64,000 bases of DNA from Meiothermus rufus DSM 22234 (GTDB lineage Bacteria; Deinococcota; Deinococci; Deinococcales; Thermaceae), in the NCBI RefSeq assembly GCF_000423425.1, contig NZ_AUHY01000007.1:1-64000 (forward strand). The letters are read 5' to 3'. Below the pieces are notes generated by a model, which ran no database searches, was not told the DNA's origin, and was given only the letters and a program-made list of their open reading frames with translations. The position numbers and the translations under genes were made by a program. The stretch's first letter is position 1; each line of letters opens with the position of its first letter. Below, piece by piece: positions 31,514 through 33,341 of this stretch.

Positions 31514-32223
31514 TGCGCCTACGGGTGGAACCTTTACCCCAGCCGGGCCTGCGCTTCGACGATGTGGTGCTGGTGGTGGACGTGATCCGGGCCACCAGCA
31601 CGGCCACCATGCTCCTCGAGGCCGGGGCCCGGGCCTTGTGGCTTACGGATCACCTGGACAAAGCCCGCCGCCTGCGGCAAAACGGCGAGGTGTTGGTGGG
31701 CGAGGTGGGGGGCCTGAAGCCCGAGGGTTTCGACCTGGGCAACAGCCCCCTCGAGGCCCGGCAGGCCCCGGTAGCAGGCCGGGTCGTCGTTCAGTCCACC
31801 ACCAACGGCACCAAGACCGCCCACCTGGCCACCCAGAGCGCCCGGGAGGTCTTGCTGGCTGCACTGCTCAATGCCAAGGCAGCGGTTCAGGAGGCCCTGC
31901 GGCGGGCCCAGAAGGAGGTGGCTATTCTCTGTGCGGGCAAGGAAGGGGCTTTGGGCCTAGATGACCTCTACACCGCCGGGGTGCTGGCCGACTTGTTACA
32001 ACAGGAGGGCCTAACCCCGGTGGGCGACGCCACCCGGCTGGCTTTGGAACTTTGCTGGCACTACCTCGACCCCCAACGGGTGCTGCCCCTCTCGGAGGCC
32101 GCCCAGGCCCTAAAGAAGGTGGGCTTGGGGGCCGATGTGGCCTTCTGCGCCCAGGTGAACCTCTCCTCCCGGGTGGCCCGTCTGAAGGAGCGCCAGGGCG
32201 AGGCCCTGGTCTTTGAGGGGTGA
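31513..32223 (+). CDS. comB: ComB-family 2-phosphosulfolactate phosphatase-like protein
   Basis: 236 residues. Family blocks include the N-terminal VLVVDVIRATSTATMLLEAG with the RATST loop, the NSPLEA segment, VVQSTTNGTKT, and the AGKEGALGLDDLYTAG region with acidic metal ligands. ComB dephosphorylates 2-phosphosulfolactate in coenzyme M synthesis in archaea; in bacteria without that pathway the substrate is unknown. It starts within the transketolase stop (TGATG), so coupling is expected. Confidence 0.85.
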   Translation: MRLRVEPLPQPGLRFDDVVLVVDVIRATSTATMLLEAGARALWLTDHLDKARRLRQNGEVLVGEVGGLKPEGFDLGNSPLEARQAPVAGRVVVQSTTNGTKTAHLATQSAREVLLAALLNAKAAVQEALRRAQKEVAILCAGKEGALGLDDLYTAGVLADLLQQEGLTPVGDATRLALELCWHYLDPQRVLPLSEAAQALKKVGLGADVAFCAQVNLSSRVARLKERQGEALVFEG

Positions 32224-32235
32224 GAGGTAAACTAT

Positions 32236-32573
32236 CCCATGGCTAAAGCCAGGGGCTTTCCGAGGGAAGAAGATGCAAAGACGAAACCCTCAGAATCCGG
32301 GTTGCTACAGCGCAACCCTGGGCCGGTTTACAGCGGCCCCTGCCCATCGAGCCCGCTCTTTGGGCATAGTAGATGCTCCGTGTAAAGCCATCCTCCGTTG
32401 GAGGTGCGTTCGAAGCAAGCCCTCAGGGTTTTACCCAGGCAAGGCGGTGTCGTGCCTGGAACCCCATACCCCGACTGTAAAGGTTCTCTGGGGTAGCTCT
32501 ACCCCTAAGCACATCCTAGCCCATCCCACGAAAGGAGGAAAGCCGTCCTCCTCCCCATGCCTGAAGGCAGGGG
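32236..32573. mobile_element. Non-autonomous IS200/IS605-like element (PATE/MITE type)
   Basis: The two ends carry matching imperfect hairpins: left CCC-A-TGGC-TAAA-GCCA-GGGG (32236-32255) and right CCCC-A-TGCC-TGAA-GGCA-GGGG (32553-32573), each with the unpaired A after the C-tract, as in subterminal hairpins of IS200/IS605 elements. The 338 bp between contain no transposase; a 104-codon frame inside (32273-32587) has no recognisable domain. Several internal stems exist: CCAGGCA/TGCCTGG at about 32432-32458, GGGGTAG/CTACCCC at about 32491-32506 and AGGAGG/CCTCCT near 32534-32553. It fills the gap between comB and the HAD gene. Confidence 0.55.
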
Positions 32574-32584
32574 TCTTTGGGCGG

Positions 32585-32594
32585 TAGAATTTTG
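32585..32594 (+). promoter_or_regulatory. -10 box of the HAD phosphatase gene
   Basis: TAGAAT (32585-32590), 4 nt before the ATG at 32595, just beyond the IS-like right end. The element may have placed or split this promoter. Confidence 0.4.
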
Positions 32595-33341
32595 ATGAAA
32601 GCGCTTATTTTCGATGTAGACGGGGTCATCGCCGAAACCGAGGAGGCCCACCGCGAGGCTTTCAACTTGGCCTTTGCCGAGGCGGGCTTGGAAATCGAGT
32701 GGAACCAATCCCTCTACCGGCGGCTATTGTGGGTGACCGGGGGCAAGGAACGTATCGCCCACTACCTCTACCACTGCCCAGAATGCCCCAAACTGCTCGA
32801 GGCCAGCATCGCCCAGCTTCACCAGCGCAAGACCGAGATTTACAACCAGCTCGTGGCCCAAGGACGGGTTCCCTTCCGCCCAGGGGTGCTGCGGCTGTGG
32901 CAAGAGGCGCGGGAGGCCGGGCTGCGCTTGGGTATCGCCACCACCACCTCGCTGCCCAATGTGCTGGCCCTGCTGGCCCAGGCCGGGCCAGGGGCCGAGG
33001 GCTGGTTCGAGGTCATCGTGGCCGGGGATATGGTGGCGGCCAAGAAACCAGCCCCCGATGTCTACCAACAGGCCCTGCGCCGCCTGGGGCTTTCCCCCCA
33101 GGAGGCCATAGCCTTCGAGGACTCACACAACGGCTTGGTGGCGGCCCAGCGGGCCGGGCTGCCGGTGCTCATCACCCCCAGTTTCTACACCGACGACCAG
33201 CGTTTCGAGGGGGCTTTGGCGGTGGTGGAACACCTGGGCGAGCCGGACAAACCGGCCCAGGTGCTCTGGGGCCCCGATAAAGGCCCTGTGGTGGTGACCC
33301 CGGCCCTGTTGCAAACCTGGCTGCAGGTGGGGGTGGGCTGA
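32595..33341 (+). CDS. HAD-superfamily phosphatase, CbbY-like
   Basis: About 248 residues from MKALIFDVDGVIAETE. HAD motif I is DVDGV, motif II ATTTSLPNV, motif III AKKPAPDVY with the lysine, and motif IV FEDSHNGLVAA. A helical cap inserted after motif I (about 15-80) has a CPEC pair. Most like plastid/bacterial CbbY (xylulose-1,5-bisphosphate phosphatase) and phosphoglycolate phosphatases; the proximity of transketolase is compatible with sugar phosphate housekeeping. Its stop overlaps the next gene (TGATG). Confidence 0.85.
   Translation: MKALIFDVDGVIAETEEAHREAFNLAFAEAGLEIEWNQSLYRRLLWVTGGKERIAHYLYHCPECPKLLEASIAQLHQRKTEIYNQLVAQGRVPFRPGVLRLWQEAREAGLRLGIATTTSLPNVLALLAQAGPGAEGWFEVIVAGDMVAAKKPAPDVYQQALRRLGLSPQEAIAFEDSHNGLVAAQRAGLPVLITPSFYTDDQRFEGALAVVEHLGEPDKPAQVLWGPDKGPVVVTPALLQTWLQVGVG

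Follow-up and report, generated by a model that had tools for sequence, protein, structure and literature searches.

A protein-less IS200/IS605-type element of Meiothermus rufus with a conserved RNA core and an omega-RNA-like scaffold

Introduction

Stand-alone omega-RNAs, and PATEs with an omega-RNA, have been reported for IscB/TnpB systems, and the IS605-orfB and HEARO motifs are RNAs tied to IS200/IS605-type elements. PATEs are the already known protein-less derivatives of IS605 (PMC3119063, PMC7290912), and examples that arose by deletion of the element's core are described in Haloquadratum (PMC3119063). TnpB makes its omega-RNA out of its own mRNA (PMC10278001).

Here we analyse a short element in a 64,000-nucleotide stretch of Meiothermus rufus DSM 22234 (contig NZ_AUHY01000007.1, positions 1 to 64,000), which we call the window. 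It resembles the PATEs of H. walsbyi in being too short to code, in its IS605-related subterminal palindromes, in the lack of target duplication and in its presumed mobilisation in trans, and it differs from them in having an omega-RNA scaffold and an RNA core conserved across end families and two phyla, no conserved RNA being described in the available part of that account (PMC3119063). As in the omega-RNAs of Dra2TnpB (PMC10097598) and AmaTnpB (PMC10278001), a 3' scaffold would be followed by a guide in the flank, and the last bases of the right end are predicted to form a pseudoknot with a site about 100 nt upstream, as they do in TnpB omega-RNA (PMC10097598). Unlike TnpB/omega-RNA elements, it has no tnpB, has its own predicted promoter and carries an extra 5' core absent from the tnpB elements compared. 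Its guide RNA would be encoded apart from the nuclease, as in the stand-alone omega-RNAs of IscB/TnpB systems.

Results

Identity, edges and insertion site

The features of the element and its neighbours are as follows.

32227 to 32594, minus strand: whole non-autonomous IS200/IS605-type element; right end GTTTAC kept in relatives, left target TTCAT/TCAT, ten orthologous loci without the element
32227 to 32232, minus strand: right-end terminus GTTTAC, conserved in relatives; predicted to end the RNA scaffold on its 3' side and to supply a pseudoknot strand
32236 to 32255, minus strand: right-end subterminal hairpin CCC-A-TGGC-TAAA-GCCA-G-GGG with an unpaired A (DNA folding; scaffold alignment A4)
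32553 to 32573, minus strand: left-end subterminal hairpin CCCC-A-TGCC-TGAA-GGCA-GGGG with an unpaired A (DNA folding; common to the copy on contig C64)
32595 to 32599, minus strand: target and predicted transposon-adjacent motif TTCAT; on the plus strand ATGAA, the HAD start codon plus AA
31513 to 32223, plus strand: comB-like gene, a neighbour kept in relatives, whose product we take to be 2-phosphosulfolactate phosphatase
32595 to 33341, plus strand: HAD-family phosphatase gene (family name as in the preliminary description), its start codon adjoining the element

Minus is the sense strand, because of the orientation of tnpB in the related element on contig C64 of the same genome, and on it the element covers 368 bp, with its left end at 32594 and its right end at 32227 as judged from conserved ends and sequence. 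The span of 32236 to 32573 given in the preliminary description holds from hairpin to hairpin but not as the edges of the element, and the two ends do fold, as it proposed, into the same type of imperfect hairpin with an unpaired A. The z score of DNA folding was -2.05 for the right hairpin and -1.02 for the left one, for which folding by itself is therefore weak evidence, and the whole segment folded modestly better than its shuffles (z -1.95 on the plus strand, -2.13 on the minus strand). With folding statistics this modest, the case depends on the comparison of copies, and the other copies in this genome and in the family, described below, are decisive.

Subterminal imperfect hairpins with an unpaired base, the lack of terminal inverted repeats and insertion 3' of a short fixed target without target duplication (TCAT at 17 of 20 junctions; the exact empty site is that of a type-2 copy and not of the window copy) are hallmarks of IS200/IS605, and a non-coding interior between ends related to those of a coding IS605 element, here that of C64 with its tnpB, is what characterises a PATE. 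All of these were observed here, and the assignment of the window segment as an ORF-less PATE-type IS200/IS605 element is well supported. The interior was correctly described as lacking a recognisable transposase, save for a relic of 33-40 codons from the 3' end of tnpB; a 104-aa plus-strand ORF is antisense and unsupported.

Base 32594 is the last before the HAD start codon, and the left end adjoins this ATG because the target TTCAT, read in reverse, is ATGAA. Among the 20 left-end junctions of type-1 elements examined (type 1 being that of the window), at least TCAT was found in 17, TCAA in two and TCGT in the copy on contig C5. At 13 of the 17 TCAT junctions a long reading frame starts with this ATGA (nine shown to run for at least 80 codons and four others ending at the locus edge after 53-72 codons), the background in the window being 83 of 241 ATGA sites open for 80 codons; the genes at such junctions presumably include nrdR and murI. 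Selection against harmful insertions would suffice to account for this bias. The predicted site before insertion reads ...GGGGTGAGAG joined directly to ATGAAAGCG. At 32583-32594 the left end places TAGAATTTTG right before the HAD ATG, with the -10-like hexamer TAGAAT four bases ahead of it; no such hexamer was seen among the other type-1 left ends read, and it could give rise to a leaderless transcript.

Copies and empty sites

Other copies with the same ends, which the preliminary description had suggested looking for, occur in the same genome on contigs C5 and C64. The C5 copy is short and 76% identical, interior included, while C64 carries the same ends around a tnpB (OrfB_IS605, Cas12f1-like_TNB). 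The reading frame of this tnpB is, however, broken by a frameshift near the N-terminus, the relative G002 having an intact 391-aa version, so that the cognate TnpB may be absent from the genome of M. rufus. In a search of 50 genomes from the family, this one counted, 15 gave matches to the element.

Within the genus, the element is missing from ten orthologous HAD loci, as judged from the locus sequences, the automated stop-to-start gaps being crude (none in one of the ten, and some out-of-frame stops). The empty sites proposed for finding the exact insertion were present at the HAD locus, but exact junctions came from a sister element in G039, whose joined flanks match across the junction in 21 of the 50 genomes (at least 255 of 260 bases, 78-94% identity), the two flank halves lying 391 bp apart in G039 itself with the sister element between them. 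When seven of these junctions were aligned, six were gapless at the join, one of them with a one-base gap 11 bases downstream, and the seventh had one extra base. A weaker query, built on the C24 copy of G000, gave end-to-end matches only in diverged relatives (about 66-79% identity).

These results bear on the outcome that the preliminary description had named as fatal to its reading, namely a lack of copies and conservation by vertical descent. A vertically inherited leader or host small RNA of the HAD gene would fit the position between comB and HAD and the end at the start codon; it is refuted by the ten element-free orthologous loci and by the copies at unrelated loci, and we regard it as extremely improbable.

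An omega-RNA-like scaffold shared with tnpB elements

Three features lie in or beside the right-hand part of the element.

32227 to 32365, minus strand: omega-RNA-like scaffold, common with the 3' end of tnpB elements and including the relic of tnpB C-terminal codons (alignment A4)
32326 to 32331, minus strand: GUAAAC, predicted to pair in a pseudoknot with the right-end GUUUAC
32211 to 32226, minus strand: predicted 16-nt guide, encoded by flanking DNA, by analogy with TnpB systems as far as these are described in the available parts of PMC10278001 and PMC10097598

Over its right-hand ~120-140 nt the element matches tnpB elements at their 3' ends, and in alignment A4 the 3' scaffold is nearly identical with and without tnpB. 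As in TnpB omega-RNAs, this scaffold, homologous to that of the tnpB elements, terminates at the right end. The GUUUAC and GUAAAC strands are present in 16 of 16 type-1 elements, the latter 77-99 nt from the right end, and since they are invariant within type 1 they provide no covariation. In type 2, 37 of 46 distinct ends have GGACGG at a distance of 60-87 nt upstream of GUCGUCAC, a possible counterpart of the type-1 strand. Together with the copies that share its ends, the retained scaffold supports the earlier suggestion of a mobilised IS605-family derivative that keeps a guide-like RNA.

We compared 138 loci with the RNA core (many of them duplicates of a copy) with four Thermaceae tnpB queries, from which distant cyanobacterial TnpBs could escape, and found no full tnpB between core and right end. 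Any tnpB-like stretch was seen in 18 loci, as relics of 16-48 codons inside the element in 14 and as partial matches outside it in four (L174, L200, L207, L245); the ORF lists of 15 cyanobacterial core loci showed no obvious tnpB inside the element. At L005:988 and in G000:C64 a frameshifted tnpB seems to start 6 nt past a TAAAAT hexamer, that is, leaderless, and this hexamer has the same promoter position as that of the RNA core in the short elements.

A conserved and covarying RNA core

Beyond what the preliminary description had seen, the interior holds a conserved RNA core common to unrelated element families and is more than a tnpB remnant.

32420 to 32505, minus strand: conserved structured RNA core, matched at 106 bits by model R1, itself trained on four copies including that of the window
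32490 to 32505, minus strand: 5' hairpin GGGGTAGAGCTACCCC, predicted start of the RNA (sequence and fold comparison of copies)
32513 to 32518, minus strand: promoter-like -10 hexamer TAGGAT just 5' of the core, predicted from sequence

The core takes the place of tnpB. GUA[U/G]GGGGUU and GUAAAA flank a hairpin whose length varies, and a covarying 6-bp helix closes the whole. The invariance of GUA[U/G]GGGGUU and GUAAAA is partly by construction, because the motif was the search string in the scans from which it was read; the matches of R2, a 16-sequence model, include variants of it. In alignment A5, made of 16 of 20 sequences (the long hairpins of L011, L174, L140 and L069 excluded these four), 95.7% of 208 cells were paired and 11 of 13 pairs had changed on both sides, a covariation that none of 500 shuffles reached and that was sharply lost when the pairing was slid by one column. 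A separate helix count on 19 and 20 unique helix sequences, in which L168, L170, L178 and L083 were kept despite poor pairing of helix B (3-4 of 6), was not reached by any of 5000 shuffles. Pair counts were made without L181 (Verrucomicrobia), a motif match within a coding region and probably due to chance.

A TANNWT hexamer stands at the promoter-like position in 30 of 56 distinct copies, whereas five neighbouring 16-nt windows have one in 3 to 16 copies each; that no more than 30 of the 56 have it where expected speaks against an RNA with its own promoter. We rejected a core-internal AACC/GGUU pseudoknot, which fits the first four sequences and never varies there, its AACC strand being missing from several other copies (TTCTTG, CTCACTTG). 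The interior is not a protein-coding relic either: no single frame stays open across the window's core region in all copies, and the tnpB elements compared have no such core. In L076, L081 and L092, GC-rich palindromic inserts (CCGCCCCGCC..GGCGGGGCGG) lie within core elements, and they recur in the left end of a tnpB element (L010); perhaps they are another tiny nesting mobile repeat.

The whole window had no Rfam match at the gathering threshold, and a permissive scan of the element gave only scattered sub-threshold matches (best E 0.077, Corio-PBP). The HEARO model, which describes the IscB omega-RNA, did not match the element at E<=10, and neither IS605-orfB nor HEARO appeared among its Rfam matches at that level. 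A structured RNA within an IS605-type element might also point to an IStron, that is, an element of this type with a self-splicing group I intron. No group I intron was matched in the element even at E<=10, nor in its relatives, and the element is too short and intergenic, so that this reading can hardly hold. The minus strand of L024:1153-1245, at the right end of a core-bearing type-3 element, scored 47.3 bits with the archaeal RNA HgcC (cut-off 50), a match that takes in the hairpin and the GUCAGC end; judged by this similarity, HgcC itself may be the 3' end of an IS605 omega-RNA.

Spread and end types of the core

Core-bearing, ORF-less elements have at least four end types.

Type 1 (window): target TCAT, right end GTTTAC
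Type 2: target TTAG, end GTCGTCAC, 315-420 bp in ten of eleven copies (G022_C4 left out, its left end being misplaced)
Type 3 (L024): end GGATGTCAGC
Type 4 (G004): end GTGTCAA

R1, the four-sequence model, matched 19 of 111 Deinococcota genomes, all in the family of M. rufus, with 19 matches in G039 and 7 in M. rufus itself. A motif scan of named genomes returned 40 stretches, mostly from Thermus, Meiothermus and Calidithermus and also from Symploca, a Nostocaceae and a Synechococcales MAG, plus one probable chance match. With R2, four cyanobacterial genomes gave 14, 9, 1 and 35 matches (E<=0.05), and 25 of 244 genomes sampled from the phylum of one of these four, the Symploca genome G114, were matched (E<=0.001). 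The core is thus common to at least four differently ended kinds of tnpB-less element, found in Thermaceae and Cyanobacteria, and a single genome may have as many as 35 matches. Type-2 core elements also occur on three viral contigs (L206, L207, L208), so phages may transfer them between hosts. Type 2 inserts after TTAG, whose TAG resembles the stop codon of the upstream gene in several copies (L096, L098, L099, L108-L112 and others); this target and the ATGA start codons of type 1 both look like gene-boundary-safe targets.

This distribution bears on the reading of the element as a passive remnant, an internally deleted IS605 that kept only the DNA ends needed by TnpA and whose interior RNA is functionless. 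PATEs made by core deletion are known in Haloquadratum (PMC3119063), some relatives have lost the RNA core (L152, L150, L151) or are decayed (L018, L027), and the M. rufus genome lacks a complete transposase. However, the core covaries strongly across at least four end families and two phyla, and it is missing from the tnpB elements examined and is therefore not a deletion relic; we consider a passive remnant quite unlikely.

Discussion

The explanation that we favour, and think probable from sequence comparison, is a PATE-type element carrying a stand-alone omega-RNA gene, a parasite of TnpA and TnpB acting in trans, with the core as the 5' domain of its RNA. A promoter in the left end would start the RNA at the 5' hairpin, and the RNA would run through the core and then the omega-RNA scaffold into the flank, whose first ~16 bases would be the guide. 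TnpB from a relative would load this RNA in trans and cut, at TTCAT plus the guide, sister chromosomes that had lost the element or never had it, with the proposed result that the element is copied back, while the Y1 transposase TnpA, also in trans, would move it. The core would replace the upstream tnpB mRNA of full elements as a stable, coding-free 5' domain. The step from a conserved scaffold to a TnpB-bound guide RNA draws on published TnpB biology, as given in the available parts of PMC10278001 and PMC10097598, and would hold by analogy with it. Against a stand-alone omega-RNA counts that the core is separate from the known TnpB-bound scaffold and situated 5' of it, and the role given to the core is a guess.

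As to partners, the M. rufus genome has six TnpB-domain matches above the cut-off, of which two are long open frames of the type-2 family (C27, C18), and its 121-contig draft contains two partial Y1 transposase matches and no intact TnpA. At present the window copy is probably immobile in this genome, or is reliant on something missing from the draft.

The core might instead be a different RNA device, such as a regulator of TnpA/TnpB, a self-processing ribozyme or an attenuator protecting the element or its neighbours. The core motif is compact, its internal loop is invariant while its hairpin varies in length, several 3' scaffolds are attached to it as to a portable module, and a region of the TnpB mRNA can inhibit DNA cleavage (PMC10278001). 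Yet it has no credible Rfam family match, and in those intact copies that were read it precedes an omega-RNA-like 3' end; we judge such a device unlikely.

A bolder proposal, which we hold tentatively and rate at somewhat under an even chance, is that the core marks a separate class of selfish RNA gene, a portable 5' domain that frees omega-RNA scaffolds from tnpB mRNA and that has spread or been conserved between Thermaceae and Cyanobacteria in parasites of RNA-guided nucleases. No title or abstract returned by our searches of open PMC papers describes such a core in PATEs with unrelated ends from two phyla, and the conserved 5' RNA core is apparently undescribed. If the favoured explanation is true, guide RNAs can persist and multiply as independent genes, separate from the nuclease, in two phyla and in up to dozens of copies per genome. 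It would become a testable question whether TnpB keeps up its own transposon plus a crowd of protein-less parasites, and these elements would provide naturally coding-free omega-RNAs, free of the constraint of overlapping tnpB codons, together with a conserved RNA fold to solve.
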